A stretch of 64,000 bases of DNA from Gallionella sp. (GTDB taxonomy: Bacteria; Pseudomonadota; Gammaproteobacteria; Burkholderiales; Gallionellaceae), in contig JAQTUP010000004.1 of the NCBI GenBank assembly GCA_028707275.1, positions 62,001 through 126,000 of the forward strand, written 5' to 3'. Both the position numbers and the translations under genes were made by a program. Position 1 is the stretch's first letter, and each line of letters opens with the position of its first letter. Positions 26,398 through 59,101 of the stretch are shown piece by piece. The notes under the pieces were generated by a model. The model saw nothing but the letters and a program-made list of their open reading frames with translations, had not been told where the DNA came from and searched no databases.

Positions 26398-27015
26398 TCA
26401 GTCGCTTATCACATCCGCGCCTGCGGGGGGCGTAAATTGAAACTGCTGCGCGGGTAACTTCGGATTGCGCTGCATGGCAGAAAAACGCAACACCGTCTTA
26501 TGACCGAAGGTGTCGTTCAGCTCCATCAAAACCAATCCGGCCTGCGCATCGAAGCCCATCAACACAGCGGCAAAGCTGCTGTCCTGCGCTTTGGGGGTCG
26601 CCTGCAACCACTCCAGCCCGCCCCTGCTGCCGTTCTCACGGAGCACAAAACCGCGCTCGATTTCATTGCTGCCCGCCAGCAGTGCAGCCGGGCTGCTGCC
26701 CAGCGCCGCATCGAGCTTTTTGACCGTCACCTGGTTCAGGTCCTTGTCATACAGCCAGAATTTCACCCCATCGCCTACGATGATCTGCTCATAGGGCGTC
26801 TGGTATATCCAGCGAAATTTCCCCGGGCGCTGAAATTGCATGATGCCCGATGCGCTCTGGATACGGCGGCCATCCTGATCGAGCACCTCCTGGCTGAAAT
26901 TTGCCTGCGCCGAATGCGTCGCGGCGATAAAGGTTTTAAGTTTTTCTATCGCCCCGGCCTGAGCGGCTGTCGCACACATAAAAATTGAGAGACCGATAAA
27001 AAGTTTTTTTAGCAT
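26398..27015 (-). CDS. lolA: outer-membrane lipoprotein carrier LolA
   Basis: 205 residues from ATG 27015; the open frame continues left only into repeat DNA. A signal peptide ends near AQAGA. The mature part is a LolA beta-barrel with TFIAATHSAQANFSQEV, FQRPGKFRWIYQTPY and the late hydrophobic segments. LolA carries lipoproteins across the periplasm from LolCDE to LolB. The leader between ftsK and lolA consists of 7-bp repeat arms. Confidence 0.94.
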   Translation of the reverse strand: MLKKLFIGLSIFMCATAAQAGAIEKLKTFIAATHSAQANFSQEVLDQDGRRIQSASGIMQFQRPGKFRWIYQTPYEQIIVGDGVKFWLYDKDLNQVTVKKLDAALGSSPAALLAGSNEIERGFVLRENGSRGGLEWLQATPKAQDSSFAAVLMGFDAQAGLVLMELNDTFGHKTVLRFSAMQRNPKLPAQQFQFTPPAGADVISD

Positions 27016-27031
27016 GCTTAACACCTGAGTT

Positions 27032-27115
27032 GGGGGAAGGGAGAAGAGGGAAGGGAGAAGGGTAAAAAACCTGCGCACGGAGCCCCTTATCCCTTATCCC
27101 TTTACCCTTCTCTGT
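27032..27115. repeat. 7-bp repeat array with inverted arms, ftsK-lolA gap
   Basis: AAGGGAG-type units on the left and CCCTTAT/CCCTTTA units on the right. A perfect 12-base inverted repeat GAGAAGGGTAAA (27055-27066) / TTTACCCTTCTC (27101-27112) joins them. The right arm supplies the last codons and TAA stop of ftsK. Confidence 0.85.
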
Positions 27116-29927
27116 TTGGAGCAATCACTTCGCGATTGCCATTGCTTTGCATCGCAGACACAATGCCGGCGGCTTCCATTTGTTCGACCAGACGCGCGGC
27201 ACGGTTGTAGCCGATGCGCAAATTGCGTTGCACCTGAGAAATCGAGGCACGGCGAGACCTGACCACGATATCCACCGCCTGATCGTACAGCGGATCGGCC
27301 TCGGCATCGAGCGTGGGGCCGCCTCCGCCCTCATCCACCGAGTCTTCCTGTGAACTCAGCACGCCCTCTATATACTGTGGCGCGCCCTGCGCCTTCAGGT
27401 ATTCGGCGACGCGATGCACCTCCTGATCGGAGACAAATGCGCCATGCACGCGTTGCGGGTAACCTGTGCCCGGCGGCAAATACAGCATATCGCCCTGTCC
27501 TAGCAAGGCTTCCGCGCCCATCTGACCCAGAATGGTACGTGAATCTATCTTGGAGGATACCTGAAAAGCCACGCGAGTCGGCACGTTAGCCTTGATCAGT
27601 CCGGTAATGACATCGACAGACGGACGCTGGGTGGCTAACACCAGATGAATACCGGAGGCGCGCGCCTTCTGCGCCAGGCGGGCGATCAACTCTTCAACCT
27701 TTTTCCCCACCACCATCATCAAATCGGCCAGCTCGTCGATACAGACCACGATCAGCGGCAGTTCTTCGAGCGCTTCAGGGTCATCCGGCGTGAGAGAGAA
27801 CGGGTTGGTGCGCGGCTTCCCGGCATGGATGGCCTCATACAACTTCTGGTTATATCCTGCGATATTGCGTACGCCCAGCGCCGCCATCAGGCGATAACGC
27901 TTGTCCATTTCCTGTACACACCAGTTCAAGCCGGAGGCGGCCTGGCGCATATCCGTTACCACGGGGCAAAGCAGGTGCGGGATGCCTTCATAGACCGACA
28001 ATTCGAGCATCTTGGGATCGATCAGCAACAGGCGAACCTGTTGTGGCGTGGCCTTGTACAACAGGCTCAGTATCATCGCGTTGATCGCAACCGACTTGCC
28101 CGAACCCGTGGTTCCCGCCACCAGCACATGCGGCATCCGTGCCAGATCGGCCACCACGGGCTTGCCGGAAATATCCTTACCCATCGCTATCGTCAGCGGA
28201 GAGTGCATACCGGCATATTCCTGCGAACTTAAAATCTCGGACAGCTGCACCGTCTGCCGCTGCTCGTTGGGCAGCTCCAGCGCCATATAGGCCTTGCCGG
28301 GGATGGTCTCGACCAGACGAATGCTCGCGACCGACAAGGCGCGAGCCAGGTCTCTGACCAGATTGGTGATCTGACTCCCCTTGACGCCGACGGCCGGTTC
28401 AATCTCATAACGGGTAATTACAGGGCCAGGATAGGCGCCCACCACTTTGACGGCGACCCCAAAATCCTGCAACTTGCGTTCAATCAACCTCGATGTGGAT
28501 TCGAGCAGGTCAGCCGAAACCACTTCGACATGCTGTATCGCAGGATCGAGCAACTCCAGGGGCGGCAGGACAGGTTCGGGCATGTCGGCGAAATGACGGA
28601 CTGGCCTGTCTTCACTCGCAGGGGCAGGCCTGACCCGTTCGATTGCAGGGAGGATGACCTGAACCGCATGAGGATTTGCAAGAGGGGCAGGCAACGGCTC
28701 GACAACGGGCGACACCGGCTCAAAAACCGGCGGCACCTCGTGAACCGGCAACACCTCGCGAGCCGGCAACACCTCGTGAACCGGCAACACCTCGTGAACC
28801 GGCGGCACCTCAAAAACCGGCGGCAGCGGATCGATCTGTGTAAAAGGCGCGACCTCGATATTGACCGAAGATACCTCATCCATCCGGGTTGACTGTTCAA
28901 TGCGAGCGACTTCCGGCAGGACGACCGGCGGAATCACAGGCGCTATCTGCATCGGGGCAGGTTCATCGGTGTGCGCAGGCTCATCGACAGGCACGCCGAC
29001 AAAAGCGGGGCGAACTGTTTCGATCGCTGCAACCCTGGGCACTGGCGCGGCGTGTATCACCGGCTCATGAACAGGCGCCACAACAGGTCTAGCCATTTCA
29101 ATACGCGCAGCGGGCACTCCGGCATCCGGCAGTTTCGCCGATGGCATCACCTCCTGCGGAAGATCGACAGGCGTCGCCGCCTGAGCGGGCGGGCGATCTG
29201 ATTGATCAATCGCAATATGGATAGGCTGATGCTCTTCGACGCGCCGCTTCTCGACTTCTATGGCGATGCTGCGAACATTCATGGTCTGCTCGCCGATGCT
29301 CTTGTCCTTGCGCGTCTGGAAGAACAGGTTCACCCGACAAAAAGCGGCTTCCAAATGCGCGCCCAACCAATCGACCAGGCGCAGCCACGACAGTCCGCTG
29401 AACACGCTGAAGCTGGTCGCCATCAGGGTCAGCAACAGCAAGGTGGCGCCGGTAAAACCCAGCCAGTGAGACAGCGTCTCACCGATCAGCATGCCGAACA
29501 TGCCACCGGGCGCCGTTGGCAGAGAAATTTTGAGCGTGTGTAAACGGATCGCCTCCAGCGCACTGCTGGAGAGCAACAACAAGGCGAATCCGGCAACGGA
29601 AACCCACAACGCACGCTTACAAAAGAGACTGTCTGCGCGCAAACTGCGATAGCCCGCCCACACCTGTTGCAGCATGAACAGCACCAGCCACCAGATTGAA
29701 ACGCCGAACAGATAGAACATCAGATCGGACAGATAAGCGCCCAGCACCCCCATGGGATTATGAATTTGCGTACTGCCGCTACTGTGAGACCAGGCAGAGT
29801 CAGCCGGATCGTAACCATACAGCGCTGCCGTGATATACACCGCACCCGCTACCAGCCACAGCCATCGTGATTCGCGCAACAAGCCTAACAGCTTATTGAT
29901 CAGCAAGTCGTGTCCTGCTTCAGCCAT
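27102..29927 (-). CDS. ftsK: DNA translocase FtsK
   Basis: 941 residues from ATG 29927. Four N-terminal helices (about 15-185), a long Pro/Val/Glu-rich linker (about 200-440) with repeated VLPVHE units, then the RecA-like motor with Walker [15 protein letters not shown] and Walker [15 protein letters not shown], and a C-terminal winged gamma domain ([19 protein letters not shown]) that reads KOPS sequences. FtsK pumps chromosome dimers at the septum and activates XerCD. The stop codon lies inside a 7-bp repeat arm. The start overlaps the upstream regulator gene by 8 bases. Confidence 0.97.
28717..28827. repeat. 18-bp tandem repeats in the ftsK linker
   Basis: Four to five copies of an 18-base unit (like ACCTCGTGAACCGGCAAC) that code for VLPVHE hexapeptides. 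In-frame, ordinary for FtsK linkers, and unrelated to the 7-bp arrays. Confidence 0.8.
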
Positions 29928-30573: not shown

Positions 30574-30643
30574 GTTTTTCTCCGGGAAAGTTAGGCCATG
30601 CAATGCCACGGGCTAATCATAACATCCGGCAAGCGAAACAACA

Positions 30644-30663
30644 GAAACCGAAAACCGAAAACC
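30644..30663. repeat. short array of GAAAACC units
   Basis: GAAACC GAAAACC GAAAACC between the Sco gene and the response regulator, same unit family as in the pseudopilin leader at 54122-54142. Confidence 0.7.
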
Positions 30664-30669
30664 TGGCAT

Positions 30670-31951: not shown

Positions 31952-31960
31952 GGAAAAATA

Positions 31961-31981
31961 GTGGATAGTGGATAGTGGATA
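31961..31981. repeat. three perfect GTGGATA units
   Basis: GTGGATA repeated three times without error, filling the gap before bioD's 3' end at 31984. Confidence 0.9.
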
Positions 31982-31983
31982 TT

Positions 31984-32652
31984 TTAATGATTTAACAGTG
32001 AGATATCCAAAAGATTCGCCACATCCCTCGCATCCGGGGACACCGGATAATGCGGCACCACGCCCAGCAACGGCGCCCTGATGCGTTGCTGCAAGGCAGC
32101 TATATTTTCATTTTGCATGCTCATTGATCCGTCCACGCAGTTAGCCACCCAGCCTGCCAGCTCCAGGCCGCAACGGACAATCGCATCCGCCGTCAGCCGC
32201 GCATGATTAAGACACCCCAGCCGAATCCCGACCACCAGAATAACAGGTAATTTCAACAGACAGGCAAGATCTGCGCCGTCCTGCTCGTCGTTCAAAGGCA
32301 CGGCAAAGCCGCCCACGCCTTCTGCGATGACGATGTCGGCCTGTTCCGACAAGAGCCTGCAGGATAGCGCAATCCGCTGCAAATCTATCCTGACACCGGA
32401 CAACTGGGCGGCTAAATGCGGGGCCATCGCCTGTGCGAAACAATAAGGGTTCACGGCTTCGCGACTGAGGGAAAGATTGCCGGCGGCTAACAGCTGCTCG
32501 ACGTCCTCGTTCAGCCCCTGCTGGTCGCAACCTGCTGCCACCGGCTTCATTCCGGCCACCCGCAGTCCTTGCGCGGCGAAGCCTTGCAGCAGCGCGCAAC
32601 TGACCAGTGTCTTGCCGACATTGGTATCGGTACCGGTAATAAAATAGCTCAT
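31984..32652 (-). CDS. bioD: dethiobiotin synthetase
   Basis: 222 residues. Start MSYFITGTDTNVGKT carries the BioD P-loop; the following MKPVAAG lysine and the AEGVGGFAVPL region are conserved. It closes the ureido ring of dethiobiotin using CO2 and ATP. Two GGATTCA repeats lie directly before its start codon. Fourth step in the order bioB-F-H-C-D here, all on one strand. Confidence 0.96.
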   Translation of the reverse strand: MSYFITGTDTNVGKTLVSCALLQGFAAQGLRVAGMKPVAAGCDQQGLNEDVEQLLAAGNLSLSREAVNPYCFAQAMAPHLAAQLSGVRIDLQRIALSCRLLSEQADIVIAEGVGGFAVPLNDEQDGADLACLLKLPVILVVGIRLGCLNHARLTADAIVRCGLELAGWVANCVDGSMSMQNENIAALQQRIRAPLLGVVPHYPVSPDARDVANLLDISLLNH

Positions 32653-32667
32653 GGATTCAGGATTCAG
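32653..32667. repeat. two GGATTCA units
   Basis: GGATTCA GGATTCA immediately next to the bioD ATG. Confidence 0.75.
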
Positions 32668-32679
32668 ATGAGCATGCGG

Positions 32680-33549
32680 TCACAGTTTGAACGAAGTTTT
32701 GATGATCGCGGCACCCTCGCGGGTGACACGCGGGGCAGGCTTCCAGGCGTGACCATAGACCACTTCATAGGTGGCGGGCAATTTCCCGTCGCGACGCAGT
32801 TTTTCATAATTTTCCAGCAGGCGCGCCCAGGCGGATTTCCCCATCAAACCCTGGGAGCGTCCGGCGGTCGCGTTGTGTGCACCTATCGCCTTCAGGTCTT
32901 GCAGCACACCGCGCACATCGTCATAGGTCAGCGTCAGATATTCCATATCCATCACAGGCTCGGCAAAACCTGCCTGCATCAGCATGTCGCCTATGTCGTG
33001 CATATCGGCAAAACGGCTCAGATGAGTATGAGCGTCCACCCCGCTGAAGGCCTGTCTCAATTCCTTCAGGGTATCGGGGCCAAAAGTACTGAACATCAGC
33101 AGCCCATCCACCTTCAGCACCCGGTTCAGCTCGACAAAAGTAGCCGGCAAATCGTTGCACCATTGCAGGGCAAGATTCGACCAGACCAGCTCCAGACTAT
33201 CAGAGGCGAGCGGCAAGGCTTCCACATCGGCGCACACCGGCAATTGCCGCGCTCCGCCGAACAGCTTTTGCCACCAGCTGGCGCGACTTTGCGCGGTTTG
33301 CAACATGCCGATGGCAATATCCAGCGAGACCACCTGAGCGGCCGGATATTTTTCCGCCAGCTGGCGCCCGCCCCAGCCCGTACCGCTGCCCGCATCGAGC
33401 AGGCGCTGAGGCTGCATCCTGATGTAGTCCAGCCTCTCCAGCATCCGCGTACACACCTCGCGCTGTAAAACAGCCGACGCATCGTAGCCTGTTGCCGCAC
33501 GGGAAAAAGCCCGGCGCATCATCTTTTTGTCTATTACAAATTCATTCAT
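32680..33549 (-). CDS. bioC: malonyl-ACP O-methyltransferase BioC
   Basis: 289 residues. SAM-binding motif I is LLDAGSGTGWGGRQL, with motif II near LVWSNLALQWCND and motif III GLLMFSTFGPDTLKEL; all are typical of BioC. It methylates malonyl-ACP so that fatty acid synthesis can build the pimeloyl chain. It overlaps the bioH stop by eight bases. Confidence 0.95.
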   Translation of the reverse strand: MNEFVIDKKMMRRAFSRAATGYDASAVLQREVCTRMLERLDYIRMQPQRLLDAGSGTGWGGRQLAEKYPAAQVVSLDIAIGMLQTAQSRASWWQKLFGGARQLPVCADVEALPLASDSLELVWSNLALQWCNDLPATFVELNRVLKVDGLLMFSTFGPDTLKELRQAFSGVDAHTHLSRFADMHDIGDMLMQAGFAEPVMDMEYLTLTYDDVRGVLQDLKAIGAHNATAGRSQGLMGKSAWARLLENYEKLRRDGKLPATYEVVYGHAWKPAPRVTREGAAIIKTSFKL

Positions 33550-34375
33550 GCAAAAAATCCACTACGTGTTTTACAAAGGTATCGGGATGCGACAGAAAGG
33601 GCGCATGTGCTGCACCCGCTATCTCCACCAGTTGTGCGGCGGGCAAACAAGCCGCCATATATTGCGAAGCGGTCAGCGGCGTGAGCGTATCACGGACGCC
33701 TGCGATTACGAGCGCGGGCTGGCTGATTTGTGACAATTCATCGCGCAAATCCACCTCGCGCAATATTTCAAGACCGGATTGCAACGCCGCCAGATCAGGC
33801 TCGCCGCGACTTTGCAACAATTTGCGCAAACCGGCCAGCAATTCGCGCTCACGCTCACTGCCACGCACTTGCAGCGCCAAAAATCGCCGCAAGGTCAGCA
33901 AGTAGTCTTGCTGCAGAGCCGCTGAAAAATCCGCCAGGGTATCCGCTGCCATCGCACAGGGCCAATCAACCCGCTGTACAAAACAAGGGGTTGAGGAAAC
34001 GGCGATCAGACGCGTCACCTGCGCCGGATGCCGCATCGCCCAGCGCAAGGCCACCTGTCCGCCCAGCGACCAGCCACAGACTGCCAGCTGCCCGGTGAAC
34101 TGGGCGGCCAGTTGGTCAACGATAGAATCCAGGTGAGAATAGTCAGTGGCGAGTGGCAAGTGGTGAGTGTGCGGTTCGGCGCTTTTCCCACTGACCACTT
34201 CCAACTGACCACTTGCCGCACTAAAACCATGCCCCGGCAAGTCCACGCTCATCACCTGAAAATGTTCCGCCAGCATCGTCAACACCCCGCCCCACATTCC
34301 GCCGTGCATCCCCCAGCCGTGGATGAACAACAGCTGCGCACCCGAATCGCCAAAGCGGTCAATATGCAAGCTCAT
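33542..34375 (-). CDS. bioH: pimeloyl-ACP methyl ester carboxylesterase BioH with an internal repeat insertion
   Basis: 277 residues from ATG 34375, which overlaps the bioF stop by 17 bases. Alpha/beta hydrolase: HGWGMHGGMW oxyanion region, nucleophile in CGWSLGG, Asp in GVRDTLTP, His in GAAHAPF. It ends the BioC-primed chain by removing the methyl ester. Compared with E. coli BioH, about 24 extra residues (about 53-80, after LPGHGFS) are encoded by a 7-bp repeat array with inverted arms. The catalytic residues lie outside it. Confidence 0.92.
   Translation of the reverse strand: MSLHIDRFGDSGAQLLFIHGWGMHGGMWGGVLTMLAEHFQVMSVDLPGHGFSAASGQLEVVSGKSAEPHTHHLPLATDYSHLDSIVDQLAAQFTGQLAVCGWSLGGQVALRWAMRHPAQVTRLIAVSSTPCFVQRVDWPCAMAADTLADFSAALQQDYLLTLRRFLALQVRGSERERELLAGLRKLLQSRGEPDLAALQSGLEILREVDLRDELSQISQPALVIAGVRDTLTPLTASQYMAACLPAAQLVEIAGAAHAPFLSHPDTFVKHVVDFLHE
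34137..34222. repeat. 7-bp repeat array with inverted arms inside bioH
   Basis: Left arm units CAGTGGC GAGTGGC AAGTGGT GAGTGTG (34144-34171) and right arm CCACTGA CCACTTC CAACTGA CCACTTG (34188-34215). GGCAAGTGG pairs with CCACTTGCC. In frame with bioH. Confidence 0.85.
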
Positions 34376-35633
34376 GCAAGGCCTCCAGCAGACGATCGAC
34401 ATCGGACGCGGTATGCGCGGCAGACAGGGTGATGCGCAAACGGGCTGTGCCCGTTGGCACGGTGGGCGGACGGATCGCCGCGACCCAGATGCCGCGTTCT
34501 CGCAAGGCCGTACTCAAATCCAGCGCCGCCTGATTCTCACCTGCGAGCAACGGCTGTATCGCCGTACCGGATTCCATCAATACACAGGGCAAATTCGCAA
34601 GGCCCGTGCGCAATTGCGCAATCAGCTTTTGCAAATGTGCGCGCAGCTCATCCCCTCCCCGGATCAGTCGCAAACTCTCCAGCAGTGCGACAGACAAGGC
34701 AGGAGGAGTGGCCGTTGTGTACACATAGCTACCCGCATGGTTGATGAGCGTGTCGATCACCACCTGTTCTGCCGCAACAAAAGCACCAAACACCCCGGCG
34801 GCCTTGCCCAGAGTCGCCATATAAATGATACGTTTTGAATTTATGCCAAAATGAGCAAGAGACCCGCGCCCCTGCTCACCCAGCACACCAAAACCGTGCG
34901 CATCATCCACCAGCAGCCAGGCATCGTATTGCTCACACAAGGCCAGGAGTTCCGGCAGTCGCGCCATATCGCCGTCCATACTGAACACGGCATCGGTACA
35001 GATCAGTTTTCGCCCCGCTTTAACGTGAAACCCGTGCGGCGTTTCGTTTGCCCTTGCCCCCGCAAGCGGGGGAAAGTTGGAAAGGGGGAAACGGGCATGG
35101 TTAGTTTCATCATCAGGGATGGCCTCTTTGCCGTGCCCGTTAGTCTGTGCCAGCAAGCTTTCCAGCTGAGCGATGTCATTATGTCGATAGCGTTTGACGC
35201 AGGCTCGCGAGAGTTGCATCGCATCATTCAATGAAGCGTGATTGAGTTTGTCGGCAAACACCGTGTCCCCGCGTCCGGCCAATGCCTGCACCACACCGAG
35301 ATTGGCCATATAGCCTGTGGAAAACAACAGCGCGGCAGGCTTGCCTGCGAAATCCGCGAGCTCGTGTTCGAGCTGCTCGTGCGGCAAAAAATGCCCGTTC
35401 ACCAGATGCGCCGAACCCGCGCCCGCGCCCCACTGCTGCGCGCCCTGCTGCAAGGCGGCAATCAGTTTTGGATGATGAGCCAGCCCCAGGTAATCGTTGC
35501 TGCAAAAGGAAAGATAAGGCGTGCCCTCGACCACGATATGCGGCGACTGGGGGCTGAAAACCGTGCGTCGCGACCGCAGCAAACCCAGCGCGGCACGCTC
35601 ATCTAATTGAAGCTGTAGTTCAGAAAAAGGCAT
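34359..35633 (-). CDS. bioF: 8-amino-7-oxononanoate synthase BioF with an in-frame repeat insertion
   Basis: 424 residues, about 40 more than usual. PLP enzyme: HND, VDDAHGFGVLG and the Schiff-base Lys277 in TLGKAAG are intact. It condenses pimeloyl-ACP with alanine. The extra 40 residues (about 164-206, between ESLLAQ and LICTDAVFSMDGD) are encoded exactly by a palindromic repeat element and form a Pro/His/Asn-rich loop. Homologues join these two segments directly. The loop is at a surface turn before a conserved strand, so activity may be kept. Confidence 0.93.
   Translation of the reverse strand: MPFSELQLQLDERAALGLLRSRRTVFSPQSPHIVVEGTPYLSFCSNDYLGLAHHPKLIAALQQGAQQWGAGAGSAHLVNGHFLPHEQLEHELADFAGKPAALLFSTGYMANLGVVQALAGRGDTVFADKLNHASLNDAMQLSRACVKRYRHNDIAQLESLLAQTNGHGKEAIPDDETNHARFPLSNFPPLAGARANETPHGFHVKAGRKLICTDAVFSMDGDMARLPELLALCEQYDAWLLVDDAHGFGVLGEQGRGSLAHFGINSKRIIYMATLGKAAGVFGAFVAAEQVVIDTLINHAGSYVYTTATPPALSVALLESLRLIRGGDELRAHLQKLIAQLRTGLANLPCVLMESGTAIQPLLAGENQAALDLSTALRERGIWVAAIRPPTVPTGTARLRITLSAAHTASDVDRLLEALHELAY
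35020..35141. repeat. palindromic element copy A inside bioF
   Basis: Left part TTAACGTGAAACCCGTGCGG, hairpin CCCCCGCAAGCGGGGG (about 35057-35072), AAAGTTGGAAAGGGGG, and the 51-nt end module 35091-35141 with arms ACGGGCATGG / CCGTGCCCGT. About 120 nt, equal to the 40 extra codons of bioF. Confidence 0.88.
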
Positions 35634-35639
35634 CTTCGG

Positions 35640-35705
35640 TTTACAGTTTTTCAGTTCACGGCTTTCAGTTTAAAGGCATACAGAAAACGGCAAACTAAAA
35701 AACAG
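35640..35705. repeat. degenerate CAGTTTT-type 7-bp array
   Basis: GGTTTAC, CAGTTTT, CAGTTCA, CGGCTTT and CAGTTTA units, then AAAACGG CAAACTA on the other side. Fills the bioF-bioB gap. Confidence 0.7.
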
Positions 35706-35709
35706 GCAA

Positions 35710-36705
35710 CTACGCTTTGTCGGCGAAAGCATACATGCCCAGTTTATCGAGCAAGGCTCGGTCACGCGCGACTTCCGGATTGCCGGTGGTGAGCAATTGT
35801 TCGCCATAAAAAATCGAATTCGCGCCTGCCAGAAAACACAACGCCTGAATCGCGTCGGACATCTGCGCGCGTCCTGCGGATAATCGCACACGAGCCGTGG
35901 GCATGGTGATGCGAGCGACCGCGATGGTGCGCACAAAATCCAGCGGATCGAGCTCGGCCTGATCGGCCAGCGGCGTGCCCTCCACCTTGACCAGATTGTT
36001 GATCGGCACGCTTTCAGGGTAGGGATCCATATTCGCCAGCTGAGCGATCAGCCCTGCGCGCTGTGTCAAATTCTCGCCCAAACCCACGATGCCACCGCTG
36101 CACACATGCATGCCCGCCGCCCGCACGCGTTCCAGCGTATCGAGCCTGTCCTGATAATCGCGGGTGCTGATGATGTCGCCGTAAAATTCAGGCGATGTAT
36201 CCAGATTGTGGTTGTAGTAATCAAGACCGGCATCCTTGAGCTGTACGGTCTGTTCGTCGTTTAACATGCCCAATGTGGCGCAGGTTTCCATCCCCAGACC
36301 TCTGACCGCCTTGACCATCTCCACCACGCTCAACATGTCAGCCTCTGTCGGTTCGCGCCATGCGGCGCCCATACAGAACCTGTCAGCACCGGCCATCTGG
36401 GCGGCTTTGGCGGCCTCGACCACGGCAGATAATTCCAGCATTTTCCGGTCTTCCACGCCCGTCGAATGAAACGCCGACTGCGGGCAATAGCCGCAGTCTT
36501 CCGAACAGCCGCCGGACTTGATGGACAACAGGGTGGATAATTGCACCTGATTCGGATCAAAATGTTCGCGATGCACCTGCTGCGCGCGGTACAGCAGGTC
36601 GGCAAAGGGCAGACTGAACAAGGCCTCCACCTCATCCACGGCCACGCGTTGCGGCGTGACAGATTTCTTGACGGGCGGGTGAAATACGATAGTCTGGGCG
36701 GTCAT
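35710..36705 (-). CDS. bioB: biotin synthase
   Basis: 331 residues. Radical SAM cluster Cys67, Cys71 and Cys74 (CSEDCGYC) and the [2Fe-2S] ligands later in the barrel. It inserts sulfur into dethiobiotin. First gene of the biotin operon; comF starts divergently 58 bases away. Confidence 0.97.
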
Positions 36706-37477: not shown

Positions 37478-37478
37478 T

Positions 37479-37534
37479 GTTTACGGTTTACGGTTTTTAC
37501 TCTCCACTCTCCACTTACCACTTACCACTTACAG
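37479..37534. repeat. eight contiguous 7-bp units between comF and mshN
   Basis: GTTTACG x2, GTTTTTA, CTCTCCA x2, CTTACCA x2, CTTACAG, all in one 7-bp phase. The last unit supplies the mshN stop codon. Confidence 0.9.
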
Positions 37535-38515
37535 CTTGTTGATTTTCTGCTGCACGAAGGCTTGCAGTTCGGGGCTGAGCGTCCGGCTTTCAAGCGCATG
37601 CCGGTAAGCTTCTTTCGCGTCATTCAGGCGCAACAGCGCCTGCAAGGAAATACCGTAGCCCATCAGCCAGACCCCCTTGTCAGGACTCGATTTGAGTGCG
37701 AGTTGATAATGTTCGGCAGCCTCACCGTGACGCCCCTTGCGCTGTAACAATGCGGCATAAAAAGCCTGATAATCTGCCAGTTGCGCCGCATGGGGCAAGG
37801 TGGCATCAAGCGTGGCCAGCGCCAGATCCAGCTCGCCGTGTTCGACCTGCAAACGCGCCAGCCACATCGCCTGCCCGCTGTTGCCAGGCTTATTCTTCAG
37901 GCCGTCCTGCAACACCTGTTCAGCATCACGTGCCCGCCCGCCCTCCAGCAACAGTGCAACCAGGGCCTGCCTTGCCGCATCATGGTTCACATCAGAACGC
38001 AGGACACCTTCATAAGCTGCAATGGCATCCGCTGTTCGTCCTTGCAACATGCTGGCATTCGCCCGGCGATATTCCGCATCGACCTGTTGCGCCTGACTGA
38101 TTTGCTTGACCGGAAGACTGCCAGGCGGAGTCGTCGCCACCGGTATCTGACGCACCTCCGGCATCGAAGGTTTGGCCTGCCCGGGCATCGCTTCACTCTT
38201 ACTAGCAGTGAGCGGCCTCTCGGGCAGCGGCACCGAACTCAATTCAAAACTCAAACGGGATGCCAGAGGCGGCATGACGGGCGCCACCGGTGCAGCCCTC
38301 GTCGGCGCGCTCGCCGGAGTCAGCGCCACGACCTTCGTCGGCACAGGCAAGAGACGCCAAAATACAACGGCTGCCATCAGCAAGCCCACAAGCAGCGCGA
38401 TGAGCGCCCGTATGCCATGATAATTGCGCACCACTTGAACCGGGCGCACCTGAGGAGCCGCCGACTGCACGCCGCGTTTATCCAGCTGGTTGAGCACCTG
38501 ATTGATCACGCTCAC
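37529..38515 (-). CDS. mshN: MSHA biogenesis protein MshN (TPR)
   Basis: 328 residues from GTG 38515, giving the typical MSVINQVLNQLDKRG start; GTGA overlaps the mshM stop. One helix (about 39-58), a Pro-rich periplasmic linker, then TPR repeats (about 155-325; VDAEYRRANASMLQGR, DAIAAYEGVLRSD, GEAAEHYQLAL). MshN links the inner-membrane platform to the secretin. Its stop lies in a 7-bp repeat. Confidence 0.9.
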   Translation of the reverse strand: MSVINQVLNQLDKRGVQSAAPQVRPVQVVRNYHGIRALIALLVGLLMAAVVFWRLLPVPTKVVALTPASAPTRAAPVAPVMPPLASRLSFELSSVPLPERPLTASKSEAMPGQAKPSMPEVRQIPVATTPPGSLPVKQISQAQQVDAEYRRANASMLQGRTADAIAAYEGVLRSDVNHDAARQALVALLLEGGRARDAEQVLQDGLKNKPGNSGQAMWLARLQVEHGELDLALATLDATLPHAAQLADYQAFYAALLQRKGRHGEAAEHYQLALKSSPDKGVWLMGYGISLQALLRLNDAKEAYRHALESRTLSPELQAFVQQKINKL

Positions 38516-39462: not shown

Positions 39463-39463
39463 G

Positions 39464-39568
39464 TCAGGATGCAGGATTCAGGATGCAGGATGCAGGATGC
39501 AGAGATTCTGTGGCGGCACAGCCGCATGCCGCGAACAGCAAACTGAAAACGGTAAACTGAAAACTGGT
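39464..39568. repeat. 7-bp arrays filling the mshL-mshM gap
   Basis: Units TCAGGAT/GCAGGAT (39464-39498, six in phase) and AACAGCA AACTGAA AACGGTA AACTGAA AACTGGT (39534-39568), with a GCGGCACAGCCGC hairpin between them. Confidence 0.9.
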
Positions 39569-39576
39569 TTTTCCTG

Positions 39577-41286: not shown

Positions 41287-41720
41287 TTTTTCTCCCCGGG
41301 TTTGGGTCGCTTATGCCTGGCGACCCGCACGTTGGCCGCAGGCTTTAACGCCGCGACACTTTTTGAACGCTTGATTACATCGGGAAAAAGCGATAAAACC
41401 TGCCGCCCCTGCCCGTTGCGCAACACCACACTCTCCTCGTTCACTTCGATCAGCGTCGCATCCCCATGCTTGCCGCCCAGCGCCACGAGTTCACCGTCGA
41501 TGATCGCGGCGCGCCGCTGCCGACTGATGAGAATGGATTGCAAACCGGCGGGTGGATTCGCGACTCCCGAAACAGCCGCAGGAACGGATACGCTGGCAGG
41601 TGGCAGCGTCGGGTCGACCAGTTCTTCGGCCCAACTGCAAACCGTAAACAGCAAACTGAAAACAGCAAACAGCTGCGCCCTTTTCCCTCTTCCCTCTTCC
41701 CTCTTCCCGATGATTTTCAT
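41283..41720 (-). CDS. mshK: MSHA protein MshK with a repeat-encoded signal peptide
   Basis: 145 residues from ATG 41720, fixed by an ATGA overlap with mshJ. The mature part (DPTLPP motif, LQSILISRQRRAAIIDG, VRLGGKH-like VALGGKHGD) is a GspC/PilP-like periplasmic domain. The signal peptide is remarkable: residues 6-28, both the basic n-region (KREEGRGKRA) and the hydrophobic core (QLFAVFSLLFTVC), are encoded by ten 7-bp repeat units in phase. Cleavage is expected near SWA-EE. Confidence 0.85.
   Translation of the reverse strand: MKIIGKREEGRGKRAQLFAVFSLLFTVCSWAEELVDPTLPPASVSVPAAVSGVANPPAGLQSILISRQRRAAIIDGELVALGGKHGDATLIEVNEESVVLRNGQGRQVLSLFPDVIKRSKSVAALKPAANVRVARHKRPKPGEKK
41637..41706. repeat. 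ten 7-bp units forming the mshK signal sequence
   Basis: GCAAACC GTAAACA GCAAACT GAAAACA GCAAACA GCTGCGC CCTTTTC CCTCTTC CCTCTTC CCTCTTC, in one phase, no gaps. Confidence 0.92.
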
Positions 41721-48322: not shown

Positions 48323-48853
48323 AAGATCCCCTGCCGCGCCCGCCGTACGGGCAACCGATGAGATATCGTAGACCCAGAGGGTGCTGGCGCCCTCCACTGC
48401 CGAAGTCGCACTGCAATTGACCGTCACCGTAAACGGCGCGAGATTGCCCGCGCCCGTCACCGTTCCCGCTACGACGACCGCCGGCGTGGGGCAGGCGGGC
48501 CAGACGACACCCGACGCCTGCTGACTGACGTTAAAGGCCGCCCACTCGACCCCGGCCAGCGCCGCCTGATAAGCGCGCGCGCCCATCACATCCATCGTCT
48601 GGCTTTGGTGCTGCGTGGTGGATAATGTCACCGCAAAGGTGCCCAGCATAGCGATCACCACCAGCAGGAAAATCGCGGAAACCAGGGAAAAACCTCTTTG
48701 AGAGGATTCAGGATTCGGGATTCGGGATTCAGAAAACCCCTGCTCACTCCAGGCTCCTGCATTCTGTATCCGGCATCCTGATTCCTGCTCTTTGAATACT
48801 GCATCCTGTATCCTGTATCCTGACTCCTGCATCCTGCATCCTGTTTTAATCAT
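48281..48853 (-). CDS. mshP: MSHA pseudopilin-like MshP with a 54-residue repeat-encoded leader
   Basis: 190 residues; ATG 48853 overlaps the mshO stop (ATGA), fixing the start. The mature part starts FSLVSAIFLLVVIAMLG after Gly54, a PilX/MshP-type N-terminus without Glu5. Normal leaders have about 6-25 residues. Here residues 4-50 are translated 7-bp repeats (GCRMQESGYRIQDA, SRIPNPES). I see no other start codon close to the cleavage site. Confidence 0.85.
   Translation of the reverse strand: MIKTGCRMQESGYRIQDAVFKEQESGCRIQNAGAWSEQGFSESRIPNPESSQRGFSLVSAIFLLVVIAMLGTFAVTLSTTQHQSQTMDVMGARAYQAALAGVEWAAFNVSQQASGVVWPACPTPAVVVAGTVTGAGNLAPFTVTVNCSATSAVEGASTLWVYDISSVARTAGAAGDLNYVEQVATARLAK
48704..48849. 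repeat. 7-bp arrays in the mshP leader
   Basis: GGATTCA GGATTCG GGATTCG GGATTCA (48704-48731), then fourteen units of GCATCCT/GTATCCT type (48752-48849) in one phase; together they form inverted arms. Confidence 0.92.
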
Positions 48854-49827
48854 GGTGTATTGTTCACATGAATTTCCTGATAAAGGCTCACGCTCTCGCC
48901 ACCGCTGGTAAGCGTCAGGCGCACGCCCAGCAGGCCGAGCCGCTGGTTGGCCACGCCGTAATCCATGACGCAGCCGCTGACATTGTTGGCCAGAACTGCG
49001 CTCGAACCTGCCAGAGCCAGCGGCGCCACTTGCGTCGCATTGAAACCATAGCCCCAGTGTTTCATCAGCCTTGCCTGCCCGTTACCACGTGCGTCCACAC
49101 CCAGAGCGCCTTCGCAGGCGAAGGTCACCGCCTGTTGTGCGCCGTCCACCACATCAAAACTCTGTGTGGAGAGCGCCGCAAAAGCCGGAAATTTCGTCGC
49201 AGTCATGTTTACCGTCGATTGCAAGCCTGCAGCGCCCGTATAAGCGCGCAACACACCCGATGTCGCCGTGGTGTCATAGGCCGGCGCGCCGTCAGACTGC
49301 GTACTGCCGACCACGATGGCGTCGCTTGCCGCGAACAGGACAGGCTGACCGATGATATCGAAACTACCGTCGCCTGCCGCAAAGTCCAGTATATCGCCCA
49401 CTGCGGACGCCGGATTGCTGAGATCCTGAACCGCCCGGTAACGCCCGACATCTCTGGTCGGCAAAAACTCGACACAAGGAATTCCGCCACAGACGGCAAC
49501 CCGGATACTGTTGGGCACGGCGGTGCTGATGTCGCTCGCCAGGCGGAACAAGGCCGTATCGACGATATCGGTCAGTTCGGCGCGGCGCGACACATCCAGA
49601 TATTGCTGGATCGGCGCCTTGAGAAACATCGCGACCATGCTGCCGATGATCCCGGTAATCACGATCACCATGATCATCTCGATCAGAGTAAATCCAGAAG
49701 AGGATTCAGGATTCAGGATTCGGGATTCAGCAAACCCCGGATTGACTCTGCGTCTAACAGGCGTAGCGACGAGCGACACACCTTCCTGCATCCTGCATCC
49801 TGCATCCTGCATCCTGACTTTACTCAT
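48850..49827 (-). CDS. mshO: MSHA pseudopilin MshO with a 45-residue leader
   Basis: 325 residues; ATG 49827 overlaps the mshD stop (TGATG). Mature start FTLIEMIMVIVITGIIG after Gly45, with Glu5. The leader contains VRMQDAGCRMQEG and SRILNPESS, both from 7-bp units. In-frame ATGs at residues 6 and 13 lie inside CAGGATG units and could also be used. Minor pilin needed for pilus assembly. Confidence 0.87.
   Translation of the reverse strand: MSKVRMQDAGCRMQEGVSLVATPVRRRVNPGFAESRILNPESSSGFTLIEMIMVIVITGIIGSMVAMFLKAPIQQYLDVSRRAELTDIVDTALFRLASDISTAVPNSIRVAVCGGIPCVEFLPTRDVGRYRAVQDLSNPASAVGDILDFAAGDGSFDIIGQPVLFAASDAIVVGSTQSDGAPAYDTTATSGVLRAYTGAAGLQSTVNMTATKFPAFAALSTQSFDVVDGAQQAVTFACEGALGVDARGNGQARLMKHWGYGFNATQVAPLALAGSSAVLANNVSGCVMDYGVANQRLGLLGVRLTLTSGGESVSLYQEIHVNNTP
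49702..49815. repeat. 7-bp arrays in the mshO leader
   Basis: GGATTCA x2, GGATTCG, GGATTCA (49702-49729) and four perfect GCATCCT units (49788-49815), inverted to each other. Confidence 0.92.
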
Positions 49828-50351
49828 CAGTACGCCGTCCTGTATCCGGTGGCTGTCACCGTCCCGCCATTGGGGGAGGTCACCGTCACGTTGATCTGCA
49901 CCGCGCTGCCTGCCGCGATACCGTTCAAGGCCATCGGCACCACAGCAACACTCGCGTTATAGGTCGGCAAAATGGCCGAAGCCGACGTAGAATCCGTCAC
50001 CGAATAGATGCCGGTCGTGTTAAAGCCGTGGTAATCATTGACGATGTGGTAGACAGAGGCACGATTGGCCTGGGTCACGGCCGCACCTGCGGCACCGGAT
50101 GCAGGCAGAAAATCCTGCAACTCGACCTCCTCCAGCAGCGAATAGGCGGCCACCATGGCCTGCTTGTTCAACAAAGGATCGGCGCTGCCGCTGGTTGTGA
50201 CATTCATCACCAGCAGGATGCCCGCCACCGCCACACTGACAATCACGATGAACATAATGAGCTCGATCAGACTGGCTCCGCGCGCGCGCATCCTGGATCC
50301 TGCATCCTGAATCCTGAATCCTGAATCCTGAATCCTGCTTTTAATGTACAT
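49827..50351 (-). CDS. mshD: MSHA pseudopilin MshD with a repeat-encoded leader
   Basis: 174 residues from ATG 50351, which overlaps the end of mshC by 11 bases. Mature start ASLIELIMFIVIVSVA after Gly25, with Glu5. Leader residues 5-20 (SRIQDSGFRIQDAGSR) come from GGATTCA-type units. PilV-like minor pilin. Confidence 0.85.
   Translation of the reverse strand: MYIKSRIQDSGFRIQDAGSRMRARGASLIELIMFIVIVSVAVAGILLVMNVTTSGSADPLLNKQAMVAAYSLLEEVELQDFLPASGAAGAAVTQANRASVYHIVNDYHGFNTTGIYSVTDSTSASAILPTYNASVAVVPMALNGIAAGSAVQINVTVTSPNGGTVTATGYRTAY
50288..50343. repeat. eight 7-bp units in the mshD leader
   Basis: GCATCCT GGATCCT GCATCCT, GAATCCT x4, GCTTTTA, in one phase. Confidence 0.92.
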
Positions 50352-52763: not shown

Positions 52764-52792
52764 ACTATAAACCAAGTTTTTTCAGTATGCAA
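52764..52792 (-). promoter_or_regulatory. putative sigma-70 promoter of mshA
   Basis: On the minus strand TTGCAT (52792-52787), 17-base spacer, TATAGT (52769-52764). Leader about 160 bases. Confidence 0.55.
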
Positions 52793-52863
52793 CAACCACT
52801 TATACTGTCCGACGAACGGTAAAAGACAGTTGACGACAGGAATGTCTGCGTGCAACGCAGGCG

Positions 52864-53475: not shown

Positions 53476-53493
53476 GGTGTAAGCTCATAACGG

Positions 53494-53542
53494 TAAGTGG
53501 GAAGTGGGAAGTGGTTAGTGGTAAGTGGTTAGTGGTGAACGG
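53494..53542. repeat. seven 7-bp units TAAGTGG type
   Basis: TAAGTGG GAAGTGG GAAGTGG TTAGTGG TAAGTGG TTAGTGG TGAACGG in one phase, between the membrane protein and the pseudopilin. Confidence 0.92.
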
Positions 53543-53549
53543 GCATGGG

Positions 53550-54191
53550 TCAGAACCACGAATACGGCTCGACCGGTTCGAATAAAAGGCCTGAAAGCCC
53601 CAGTTGCACGCCTTTTAACGAGGGCACGCTGGACGAATCATAGCGCAATGAAACATGAAAGCGTATCCACAAACGCCCGTCGGCTGCGGGTTTTAAATGC
53701 TCACGATTGCGCGGCACATAGATAAGCTCGTGCGACTTGCGGTCAAACAGCCAGTTACCCGGCGTCACACTGGCAGGAGGAGGGTCATAAAACTCGCCCG
53801 CGTAGTTAGCCGGTCGCCTTTCCAACCAGTTCATCGGGTTATCTTGCGCGAGTTTCGACACATCCGCCGAATTGCCTTGCGCCAGCATGTGCCCGTATTG
53901 CAGGGTCAGCGCGGTTTGCAGCGCGCCCGCCACCGATTCCATCGCCACCTTTTCCGCCAGCTCCTGATAGAACAGCGCGCGGGTCAGGAAAGTACCCATC
54001 AACACCATGGCGATAATGATGACGACAATCAGCTCAAGCAGGGTAAAGCCGGACTGTCGGGGTCCCAGTTTTCGGTTTGCAGTTTTCAGTTTGGAACGGT
54101 CTGCTGTCAGCGGCAAACAGGAAACCGAAAACCGGAAACCGGATTTGCCAAACCATGAACCGTAAACTGTGACCTTTGAACTGTTTTTCAT
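53550..54191 (-). CDS. MshF/MshB-like pseudopilin with a 48-residue repeat-encoded leader
   Basis: 213 residues from ATG 54191, fixed by ATGA overlap with mshG. Mature start FTLLELIVVIIIAMVLMGTF after Gly48, with Glu5. The mature domain (WLERRPANYAGEF, WLFDRKSHELIYVPR) has no Cys pair. The leader, about residues 3-42, is translated 7-bp units of the CAGTTTT/AAACCGG type. Which msh name applies is unsure. Confidence 0.82.
   Translation of the reverse strand: MKNSSKVTVYGSWFGKSGFRFSVSCLPLTADRSKLKTANRKLGPRQSGFTLLELIVVIIIAMVLMGTFLTRALFYQELAEKVAMESVAGALQTALTLQYGHMLAQGNSADVSKLAQDNPMNWLERRPANYAGEFYDPPPASVTPGNWLFDRKSHELIYVPRNREHLKPAADGRLWIRFHVSLRYDSSSVPSLKGVQLGLSGLLFEPVEPYSWF
54066..54184. repeat. 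seventeen 7-bp units in the MshF-like leader
   Basis: CAGTTTT CGGTTTG CAGTTTT CAGTTTG (left arm) through AAACCGA AAACCGG AAACCGG (right arm) to GAACTGT, one continuous phase of 119 bases. Confidence 0.92.
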
Positions 54192-55423: not shown

Positions 55424-55425
55424 GA

Positions 55426-57129: not shown

Positions 57130-57273
57130 AATTCTTCCCTGAATGAATATGTGCAATTTTTACTTGCGGGCTGACGTTAGCCTTTTTTCATGCGACTTAC
57201 AAGAGGTCTCGGCAGAACTTTATCCGACAGACGGGGTTAAAACCCGACCTGTCGCCACTACAAGGTTATTTTT

Positions 57274-57822
57274 ATGTTCCATGTGATTCTGTACCAACCC
57301 GAAATACCGCCCAACACCGGCAATATTATCCGACTTTGCGCCAACGCGGGCTGCAAGCTGCACCTGATCCGGCCGCTGGGATTCACGCTGGAGGACAAGC
57401 AGCTGATCCGCGCAGGGCTCGATTATCACGAATTCGCAAAACTGCAAGTACACGACAGCCTGGAGCAGTGTCTGCTGGCATTGCCCGTCACTACCGCTCT
57501 CCCCCACGCCACCCCTCCCCCCGCAGGAGAGGGGACAAACGTATCGCTGCGCGAACTGATCAATACCCGGCGGGTGTTTGCGCTGACCACCAAAGGATCG
57601 CAGCCTTACCATAAAGTCAGCTACCGGGCAGGAGATGCATTCTTGTTCGGCCCCGAGAGCCGTGGCCTGCCAGCTGAGCTGCTTGGCCTGTTTGATCCTG
57701 AACAGCGCGTGCGACTACCCATGCTGCCGGACAATCGCAGCCTGAACCTGTCCAACACCGTCGCGGTGACGGTATTTGAGGCATGGAGACAGTGCGAGTT
57801 CGCGGGAGCGAGGATTGAGTAA
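57274..57822 (+). CDS. trmL: tRNA (cytidine34-2'-O)-methyltransferase TrmL with an internal insertion
   Basis: 182 residues, about 25 more than E. coli TrmL. SPOUT methyltransferase: EIPPNTGNIIRLCANAG, FALTTKG, FGPESRGLP and the knot-forming LPMLPDNRSLNLSNTVAV. Methylates the wobble base of tRNA-Leu. The extra residues (about 72-95, VTTALPHATPPPAGEGTN) are encoded by a C/G-rich palindrome and replace a short loop. Confidence 0.92.
   Translation: MFHVILYQPEIPPNTGNIIRLCANAGCKLHLIRPLGFTLEDKQLIRAGLDYHEFAKLQVHDSLEQCLLALPVTTALPHATPPPAGEGTNVSLRELINTRRVFALTTKGSQPYHKVSYRAGDAFLFGPESRGLPAELLGLFDPEQRVRLPMLPDNRSLNLSNTVAVTVFEAWRQCEFAGARIE
57497..57535. repeat. C/G-rich palindrome inside trmL
   Basis: CTCTCCCCCACGCC, then CCCCTCC / GGAGAGGGG pairing around CCCCGCA. 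Resembles the GGGAGAGGGCTGGGG stretch at the ccoI end. Confidence 0.6.
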
Positions 57823-57830
57823 AAATAGAG

Positions 57831-57914
57831 CAAGTGGCAAGTGGCAAGTGGTAAGTGGTAAGTGGTAAGTGGGAACACCGCGCCCACTACCGACTCCCCA
57901 CTTCCTACTCCCTG
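57831..57914. repeat. twelve 7-bp units between trmL and gpsA
   Basis: CAAGTGG x3, TAAGTGG x3, GAACACC GCGCCCA CTACCGA CTCCCCA CTTCCTA CTCCCTG: a direct arm and an inverted arm in one phase. Confidence 0.92.
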
Positions 57915-57922
57915 CTTTTTAA

Positions 57923-58960
57923 TTACTGGCTGAACTCCAGGCTGGTGGTGCGGTTGAGCAAGGTGGCCACCATCTCGGCAGCGGGAACATGGTCATAAAG
58001 AACGCGATAGACAGCATCGCAAATGGGCATATCCACCCCCAGTCGGCGCGCTATTTGATACACTTCGCGCACGGCGTACACCCCTTCGGCAACATGCCCC
58101 AGCTGAAGCAGGATCTCATCCAGGCTCAGTTTTTCTGCAAGCAACAGACCCACCCTGCGGTTGCGCGACAGGTCCCCCGTACAGGTCAGGATCAGATCCC
58201 CCGCACCGGACAAGCCCCCCAGCGTTTCCGGGCGTCCGCCCAGTTTCAATCCCAGTCGGGTAATTTCGGCAAGACCACGGGTAATCAGCGCGGCGCGCGC
58301 ATTGTTTCCCAGTTTCATGCCGTCGCAGACACCGGCGGCGATCGCCATCACATTCTTCACGGCGCCGCCCACTTCCACGCCGATCACGTCATTACTGGCG
58401 TACACCCTCAGGCGGCAATGATGCAGAGCATGAGCCACGCGCTGCGCAAATACCTCATCGGCGCAGGCCAGCACCAGGGCGGCAGGCAAACCCTGCGCCA
58501 CCTCCTGCGCAAAACTGGGACCTGACAGAACACCCCCCTGGAATCCCGAGGGCAAAACCTGCTTCGCCACCTGATGAGGCAACAGCGATGTACCCTCTTC
58601 GAATCCCTTGCATAACCAGATCACGTCTGGAAATTTCACAACGCCTCTCTGGCCTGTATCATCTGCCGAATGCGGAACAGAGAACGCGTCGGCCAGCCGC
58701 GCCAGGGTGGCGCGCAACGCCGCCGTCGGCACGGCCAGAATAACCAGTTCAGCGCCATGCAGCGAGGCTGAAAAATCTTCGCTCAACAGCAGCTTGTCCG
58801 GCAGAGGGCAACCCGGAAGGTAGCGATGATTGGTCCGCGTCTCGCGCATTTTTGCCACCTGCGTCACGTCACGTGCCCAGAGGGTCACGCGATGATGTGC
58901 TGCAAGACTGATGGCTAACGCCGTACCCCAGGCGCCGGCGCCAATAACGGTAATGTTCAT
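57923..58960 (-). CDS. gpsA: glycerol-3-phosphate dehydrogenase [NAD(P)+]
   Basis: 345 residues. N-terminal GAGAWGTALA nucleotide site, catalytic Lys in GGAVKNVMAIAAG, and the TCTGDLSRNRRVG substrate region. Makes sn-glycerol-3-phosphate for phospholipids. A stretch of about 14 residues (SVPHSADDTGQRGV, about 95-110) has no counterpart in E. coli GpsA, but I see no clear repeat there. Lies in the usual grx-secB-gpsA-trmL neighbourhood. Confidence 0.96.
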   Translation of the reverse strand: MNITVIGAGAWGTALAISLAAHHRVTLWARDVTQVAKMRETRTNHRYLPGCPLPDKLLLSEDFSASLHGAELVILAVPTAALRATLARLADAFSVPHSADDTGQRGVVKFPDVIWLCKGFEEGTSLLPHQVAKQVLPSGFQGGVLSGPSFAQEVAQGLPAALVLACADEVFAQRVAHALHHCRLRVYASNDVIGVEVGGAVKNVMAIAAGVCDGMKLGNNARAALITRGLAEITRLGLKLGGRPETLGGLSGAGDLILTCTGDLSRNRRVGLLLAEKLSLDEILLQLGHVAEGVYAVREVYQIARRLGVDMPICDAVYRVLYDHVPAAEMVATLLNRTTSLEFSQ

Positions 58961-58993
58961 GTTCTCAATAAAATTTTAGATAGAGGGGACTAG

Positions 58994-59099
58994 TAAGTGG
59001 GGGAGTGGGAAGTGGGAAGTGGCAAATGGCAAGTGGTGAGTGGTGAGTGGTAAAACCACTGCCCTGCCTGAGTCCTGAATCCTGAATCCTGAATCCTGC
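58994..59099. repeat. 7-bp arrays between gpsA and the SH3 gene
   Basis: TAAGTGG, GAAGTGG x2, CAAATGG, CAAGTGG, TGAGTGG x2, TAAAACC, then GTCCTGA and ATCCTGA x2, ATCCTGC. One 1-base slip near 59001; otherwise one phase. It joins the two main unit families in one array. Confidence 0.9.
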
Positions 59100-59101
59100 A
59101 A

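Follow-up and report, generated by a model that had tools for sequence, protein, structure and literature searches.

Seven-base repeat arrays in Gallionella keep their period and place while their units differ between species

A 64,000-nucleotide window of a Gallionella sp. genome (GCA_028707275.1; contig JAQTUP010000004.1, positions 62,001 to 126,000) carries short tandem arrays of seven-base units, both between and within its genes. The arrays have a period of seven, a polarity when paired and a recurrent core motif; genomes differ in their dialects of units, arrays persist at the same places in related species while the unit changes, they reside in essential genes, and one whole element occurs at two loci. 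On balance, we lean slightly toward reading them as one class of short non-coding elements, about 20 to 150 bp long, which have a genome-specific heptamer vocabulary and spread by the copying of existing tracts. A full element would comprise a G-rich heptamer arm, a short core in which AAACC, or GGTTT at the opposite end, is frequent, and a C-rich arm that is often complementary to the first. The nearest relatives of the window's BioB come from Nitrosomonadales / Gallionellaceae bins (L009-L019: Sideroxydans, Gallionella, Ferrigenium), at 81 to 90%, and the host is therefore a betaproteobacterium of a family known for iron oxidation.

A sequence-only reading of the window had proposed the arrays, and self-comparison at fixed lags bears out that they are real. 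Counting 13/14 matching positions as a run, the window holds 15 runs at lag 7 and 0 to 1 at each of the other lags between 2 and 30, multiples of seven left aside, and local shuffles (n = 20) give a mean of 0.0 runs at lag 7. Genome-scale counts use a 1.664 Mb sample of the window's own genome (G000; 3,166,950 bases in 15 contigs). This sample has 111 runs at lag 7, and the highest other count is 12 (lags 2 to 22, non-multiples of seven). At a looser threshold of 12/14, the window has 17 runs, all within 27,082-59,101, which agrees with the earlier statement that the first 26 kb have none. Other parts of that reading need amendment. Tandem Repeats Finder (TRF) gives period-7 rows at or adjoining 15 of its 16 loci, but 35,640 has no such row and 32,653 has only about two copies. 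The period of seven stands, but "strictly" phased and "unbroken" were overstatements, as many arrays are imperfect and spacers part the arms. To say that the arrays fill gaps was also too narrow, as the one at 34,145-34,214 is within the reading frame of bioH (33,542-34,402).

When runs at the looser threshold are merged within 150 bp, the sample yields 122 elements. The stretch 26,900-59,100 has 13 of them, compared to 2.4 expected from the 1.664 Mb mean (window included), and is therefore a local cluster; across the sample, ten-kb bins show overdispersion (variance/mean 1.42). Positions 1-26,900 of the window are array-free though the next 32 kb are dense, and C12:1-240000 has only 3 runs; such array-poor stretches are possibly islands of other history. 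Assembly artefact is an unlikely source of the arrays, because orthologous places in independently assembled congeners carry arrays too. The G000 sample contains 146 arrays, most commonly four units long (40/146), and the commonest consensus units are AGGATTC (42), AGGATGC (16) and AAGTGGT (9); a minority of units have a GGG tract and most have GG. Genes were called with a simple codon-score caller, for which stops are exact and starts rough. NCBIfam named nine of the ten proteins submitted, leaving TsaB unnamed, and the names TsaB, bio and some others are our own reading.

Paired arrays have a consistent direction. We collected 58 adjacent pairs no more than 110 bp apart, 48 from G000, 0 from 400 kb of congener G017 and 10 from 19 congener loci, the last sitting at orthologous places and hence not independent. 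The G-rich arm comes first and the C-rich arm second in 43 of the 58, the order is reversed in 1, and the remainder are same-sign or neutral. The order reads the same on the reverse complement and so belongs to the element itself, in which the G-rich strands converge. Among the family matches listed, at least 15 opposite-strand pairs lie within 250 bp of each other, all in that same order. The polarity might come only from avoidance of G-rich, Shine-Dalgarno-like tracts ahead of starts. The single arrays fit this idea (start side, 17 C-rich and 6 G-rich; stop side, 20 C-rich, 26 G-rich and 2 neutral), but we rejected it because, of the pairs classed inside genes (n = 17, some possibly gene-call errors), 12 have the usual polarity and 1 the reverse. 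Only 2 pairs lie between convergent genes, so this class does not decide the matter.

The two arms also tend to match one another. In 1.26 Mb of G000, the arms are complementary, with at most two differences per unit, in 22 of 38 pairs, compared to 10.7 when arms are re-dealt (0/2000). At four single gaps compared across species, re-dealt arms reach the within-species pairing in 102, 5, 424 and 0 of 5000 permutations, and the covariation is non-significant at one of the four (L010 and L014, which are the same contigs as G081 and G088, were excluded here and from the unit-similarity tests below). In RNA folding predictions, five of ten window elements reach z -2.5 or lower; by this measure, hairpins are usual among the window elements and not universal. 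For the core, we scored AAACC within a 24-nt stretch whose first base is 7 nt into the 5' arm, or GGTTT in the corresponding stretch at the opposite end. Of 38 G-first spacers (30 from G000 and 8 from congeners), 22 have one or the other, never both, whereas random intergenic pieces give 2.5 expected and a maximum of 7. Across 184 arrays read on the G-rich strand, AAACC stands on the 3' side in 29 (7.8 expected) and on the 5' side in 6, and GGTTT on the 3' side in 23 (6.9 expected) and on the 5' side in 4.

The order of genes lolA-ftsK-RR-sco1-dsbD2-bioDCHFB (RR, response regulator) is largely conserved in congeners, and in about 20 of them arrays persist in the orthologous gaps with a different unit. 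The earlier claim of constant length and changing sequence is thereby extended, as the same gap in a sister species holds a different heptamer. The bioD/dsbD2 gap has CCACTAT, CCACTGA, CGACTAA or CCACTTA arrays depending on the species, and in seven rows the genes overlap by 8 nt. In the ftsK/lolA gap, units include GGGATAA, GGATTGA, GTGGTAA, GGATTCA, GTGAAAC and more; most array-bearing rows have G-rich units following the stop and C-rich ones preceding the start, and three rows (G053, G070, G081) have other sequence. The gap at 39,463-39,576 measures 93-129 bp in the window and four others, and 1 nt in six rows (L014 and G088 being the same contig). In the sco1/RR gap, the window reads GTTTTCGGTTTTCGG and G073 reads GTTTTCAGTTTTCAG, with a single change (CGGTTTT vs CAGTTTT) in both copies. 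Units at the same locus across species have a similarity of 0.341, compared to 0.167 permuted (0/2000), and units of the same species across loci 0.198, compared to 0.133 (43/2000). Across the orthologous gaps compared, no heptamer is retained across species at a given gap, and from many of these gaps the element is wholly absent. Junctions with 13-20 nt overlaps are closed in every row (g38512/g37529 in 13 rows; RR/ftsK in 19 rows), and the dsbD2/sco1 junction is opened in five rows, without heptamers. Separately, the bioH/bioC, bioB/bioF and ftsK/lolA gaps of L136, L143 and L011 hold other inverted-arm elements, of CCACAGAG... and CGCAGATTA... types, whose period is not seven.

Across the family, genomes differ in which heptamers they use. 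Three exact copies of AGGATNC occur in 32 of 158 family genomes. In 76 congeners, we counted exact three-unit matches of four families (AGGATNC, GGATNGA, ACAGARG and AAGTGGN); matches overlap within an array, so the counts are not independent events. At least one match occurs in 57 of the 76, and totals range from none to 196. G000 has the highest total, with counts of 142, 2, 0 and 52 in the above order. G040 (0, 0, 89, 2) and G083 (0, 2, 78, 0) use ACAGARG almost alone, at 89/91 and 78/80, and G032 (60, 0, 1, 0) uses AGGATNC, at 60/61. GGATNGA prevails in G048 (13, 83, 5, 6) and AAGTGGN in G085 (8, 3, 0, 71), and some genomes, G022 and G055, are mixed. Reversed patterns as a control gave 0 for AGGATNC and GGATNGA, and up to 22 for AAGTGGN (in G000) and 16 for ACAGARG, so the counts for these latter two are rougher. 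G017 has just 2 lag-7 runs in 400 kb outside its own bio region, and among 67 further loci (L022-L088), 8 have lag-7 runs, 10 in total.

Many arrays lie within genes. In G000, 31 of the 146 sit at least 90 bp inside called genes, though a few of these resemble ordinary coding repeats of other composition, and congener loci add 8 more. NCBIfam names as hosts carA, mutL (four arrays), aroA-cmk, purL, rmlB, murF, murD, murB and lpdA, and PDB alignment names metG, dnaE and cysS. Typical array peptides are QDSGFRIQDSG and ESRIPNPES, and alignments with solved homologues place extra residues where the array peptides lie in CarA, MetG, MutL, DnaE, CysS (6 residues), MurD and RmlB. Since seven and three are coprime, a stop-free array is readable in every frame. 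The carA segment was compared in 23 congeners (G000 included): it is a plain 78 nt in 12 and 84 to 156 nt, always divisible by three, in 11. Heptamer arms with differing units are recognisable in 8 of those 11, and G082, G066 and G077 have degenerate or short traces. G022 carA holds a complete two-armed element in that genome's own dialect (+63 nt) that its sister G053 lacks, which from sequence comparison is likely a recent gain. All four heptamer arrays of the mismatch-repair gene mutL (L109:16494-18437) are in frame, and two lie in its N-terminal part. A different kind of insert is found in BioF of the window (35,015-35,145): about 40 residues in frame, with a GC-rich hairpin in place of heptamers. 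It is mostly missing from the listed congener BioFs and matches elsewhere in G073 and G022, and it looks like another dispersed repeat residing in a gene.

The arrays could instead be functional RNA or DNA regulators (hairpins, G-quadruplexes or binding sites) maintained by selection, as proposed or considered for the repeats of Beggiatoaceae, Xanthomonas and Geobacter. Persistence at the same gaps, arm pairing above expectation, the predicted folds and the four-unit mode, which is also seen in the available text on Xanthomonas (PMC4692102), are all in keeping with this idea. However, the absence of any heptamer kept across species at a gap, the many element-free orthologous gaps, the many arrays in coding regions of essential genes and the arms that mismatch in 16 of 38 pairs make regulation an unlikely general explanation.

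The period itself raises the question of whether seven is counted anew or inherited. Polymerase could slip in steps of seven, set by its contact length on DNA, such that any sequence can start an array, an idea that PMC4692102 reports from an earlier source (its reference 33). Seven is the only period enriched in G000, and heptamers are the commonest intergenic repeat in many prokaryotes, according to PMC6344855. In G000 gaps, there are 36 isolated two-copy duplications of 7 bp (17 expected) and 60 exact arrays of at least three copies (0 expected); at length 6, there are 91 duplications (60.8 expected) and 3 such arrays. The ratio of excess pairs to arrays is thus inverted only at seven, with 19 pairs to 60 arrays, against 30 to 3 at six. 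When the 36 are split, 23 fall within one difference of 13 known units, compared to 3.3 in shuffles, and the 13 farther ones match the 13.6 expected. In the 67 betaproteobacterial outgroup loci, length 7 gives 18 duplications, compared to 21.2 expected, and one exact array of at least three copies. The gaps of these loci (L022-L088) have a mild excess of isolated two-copy duplications at 6 bp (130 vs 70), 8 bp (11 vs 5.4) and 9 bp (4 vs 1.4), and none at 7 bp. An excess confined to the existing vocabulary argues against duplication of any seven bases and for the spread of existing tracts. Contact-length slippage thus seems rather improbable, the earlier proposal of a copying process that counts seven bases, taken as acting on any sequence, is not supported, and seven looks inherited from existing tracts.

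One whole element is present at two unrelated loci of G000. Its copies, at C12:549482 and C14:366276, align along their entire length, with the G-rich and C-rich arms included (70/86, with 8 gaps); their flanking genes are unrelated, and their last heptamers are CTCAATC and CTGAATC. This pair, the whole two-armed gain in G022 carA and the shared AAACC core would suit a miniature mobile element, similar to repetitive extragenic palindromes (REP) or miniature inverted-repeat transposable elements (MITE), moved by a transposase such as Y1_Tnp, which has matches in 63 of the 76 congeners and a rho of 0.34 with array counts (uncorrected for kinship or completeness). However, besides the copied pair, the 118 elements share only three short matches and one 70-bp flank match outside the arrays, and no target duplication was recognised by eye in the carA insert. 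A classical mobile element with a shared core is therefore disfavoured, since spacers and flanks have almost nothing in common. The Y1 transposase link was rejected, as the correlation is weak and G032, with 61 array matches, has no Y1_Tnp match. Altogether, mobility of this kind is improbable. The only Y1_Tnp match of G000 (C14:588821-589144) is about 0.6 kb from dnaE, itself the host of a two-armed array. As for the shared flank, C1:3120-3189 and C1:173011-173080 (L149, L157) have 70 bp in common at 90%, upstream of two different genes and beside but outside arrays, which looks like a different repeat or promoter-like sequence.

Least probable is a telomerase-like reverse transcriptase that adds heptamers to broken 3' ends, with G-rich tails converging on end joining: G-rich strands do point to the element centre (43 to 1) and DRT10, a telomerase-like enzyme of bacteria, copies an RNA template into tandem-repeat DNA, but according to PMC12632851 its repeat is 9 nt in one system and of other lengths elsewhere, and a search of G000 (99.95% completeness), the genome with the most array matches, found 0 RVT_1 matches, with RVT_1 also missing from 11 of 23 array-rich congeners (at least 20 matches). 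The reverse-transcriptase link suggested earlier thus fails for G000; in the congeners, RVT_1 matches occur in 28 of 76, with a rho of 0.23 to array counts that is uncorrected for kinship or genome quality. A present-day RVT_1 enzyme behind the arrays is practically refuted, and a diverged reverse transcriptase outside the RVT_1 model is a possible source.

Returning to the spread of existing tracts, new tracts may be seeded from old ones through template switching in repair or replication, or by some trans-acting enzyme. Once seated, tracts would grow and shrink by whole units, and slippage together with copying from one hairpin arm to the other would keep them homogeneous, so that the period would be passed on even as the letters drift. 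The effect of the elements is probably near-neutral or slightly harmful; they would persist between genes and in protein loops that tolerate them, and within genes only those whose length is a multiple of three would survive. This proposal does not account for the founding period of seven, and several observations weigh against it. Before any division into families, the 7-bp duplications already exceed expectation, at 36 vs 17; 8 of those 36 lie within 150 bp of an array; and the list of unit families was drawn from the same genome, although shuffles were scored with the same list. Whole-element copying is seen in a single pair among 118 elements, with other spacers and flanks nearly all unrelated. 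G017 and G019, which have the plain 78 nt, and G077, which has a short trace, are without the full carA insert though nested in an insert-bearing clade, so losses or recombination are needed. The species-dialect effect at the bio and carA loci is modest (43/2000), 16 of 38 arm pairs fail to match at two or fewer differences, 3 of 10 window elements fold at z -1.29 or weaker, and the AAACC motif was picked after the spacers had been viewed, making its test post hoc. It is tempting to go further and see an element class in which length and polarity are heritable and sequence is not, whose tracts would be copied, drift into dialects, converge on an AAACC core and colonise gaps and loops by dedicated copying machinery; we regard this fuller version as doubtful.

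The elements are of a known kind, with properties that we have not found described. Cyanobacterial short tandemly repeated repetitive sequences (STRR) are seven-base tandem units in gaps, with other units and hosts than here, and we know of no two-armed layout among them. Rickettsia palindromic elements are palindromic inserts found in frame inside genes and also between genes. They share in-frame insertion with the heptamer elements, but they have a conserved consensus, whereas the elements here have almost none, with spacers and flanks unrelated except in one pair. The earlier statement that no description was known for this group holds for Gallionella and Sideroxydans in a literature search that many subscription papers lay beyond, but related repeats have been published for Xanthomonas, Nostoc, Beggiatoaceae and Geobacter, which we compare here from the accessible text of each source. 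Heptamers outnumber all other intergenic tandem repeats in a broad range of prokaryotes (7006 genomes), and there is "no clear clue" as to what they do (PMC6344855). The GGGAATC / GGGGAYT repeats of Xanthomonas and Nostoc (Rehm 2015, PMC4692102) have period 7, are mostly intergenic with a mode of four units, and form close convergent pairs in Xanthomonas (70 in Xcc, 75 in Xac). Their G-rich strand is the coding strand close after stops and the non-coding strand close before starts, and in 83% of cases the sister species has a repeat at the corresponding position, with "extensive length and sequence variation" (PMC4692102). The tandem seven-base unit and the convergent G-rich pairs are alike here (43/58, 1 reversed), but those lineages each have one GGG-tract unit type, whereas here there are several types per genome, mostly with GG; the 146 G000 arrays do not in general have the GGGANTN / GGGGAYT unit, GGG being in the minority. 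Orthologous unit replacement, dialects, the core motif and in-frame inserts in essential genes are features only of the elements here, as far as the available text of that paper goes. In Geobacter metallireducens, heptamers occur both inside genes and in gaps, as four-heptamer GGGACCG elements and as another class in which five MTYCTGA heptamers form a looped layout (PMC2700814). There, 49 copies matched at the nucleotide level and were read as regulatory (PMC2700814), in contrast to the elements here, which can hardly be aligned outside the unit. TAACTGA repeats of marine Beggiatoaceae, Cyanobacteria and Bacteroidetes (MacGregor 2015, PMC4679880) are likewise direct heptamers in gaps, and AAACTGA units here are one base off. 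However, they have a single unit, mostly just upstream of starts, with 1 indirect vs 169 direct sets (PMC4679880), whereas here there are many units and two arms; G000 arrays are not direct TAACTGA sets near starts, and AAACTGA-type variants are minor.

In the window, the first element is two-armed and lies in the lolA/ftsK gap (27,030-27,110; TRF; fold z -2.74), with a GGGAAGA-type arm, a AAAAAACC core and a CCCTTAT-type arm, and other units in the congeners' orthologous gap. An AAACCGA array in the gap between sco1 and the response regulator (30,642-30,665) and an ATAGTGG array in the bioD/dsbD2 gap (31,956-31,984; congener units differ) are seen both by TRF and at lag 7. The bioC/bioD gap has GGATTCA twice (32,653-32,667; TRF), a weak case of about two copies that counts as a family-like isolated duplication. 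The bioH element (34,145-34,214; TRF; z -2.32) is in frame with AGTGG/CCACT arms, and congeners have other units at the same protein site. In the bioB/bioF gap, a degenerate CAGTTTT/AAACTGA inverted pair (35,636-35,712) folds at z -5.72 with no TRF row, and G073 shares its centre with different arms. Further on, both TRF and lag 7 support an array of GTTTACG, CTCTCCA and CTTACCA (37,479-37,537); an AGGATGC arm, GC-rich core and AAACTGA arm (39,464-39,568; z -1.92); an AAACAGC arm with a CCCTCTT arm (41,631-41,711; z -0.77, hairpin not significant); two-armed AGGATTC / TCCTGCA elements at 48,702-48,846 (z -1.29) and 49,699-49,819 (z -2.58); an ATCCTGA array (50,288-50,340); a GGTAAGT array (53,491-53,538); a two-armed GCAAGTG / CCCACT element (57,826-57,915; z -3.42); and an AAGTGGG arm, AAAACC core and CCTGAAT arm, the arms mismatched (58,995-59,101; z -0.85). 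A CAGTTTT / AAACCGG inverted pair (54,064-54,145; z -3.56) has a TRF row.

What is new here is the turnover of units at orthologous places, the dialects, the polarity with its core, the arrays inside genes, the duplication excess restricted to known families and the occurrence of a whole element at two unrelated loci. With 76 congener genomes ranging from 0 to 196 matches and units that change at orthologous places, the question of whether seven is made anew or inherited becomes testable. The arrays in dnaE, mutL, carA, murD and metG indicate that repeat DNA can supply protein insertions.

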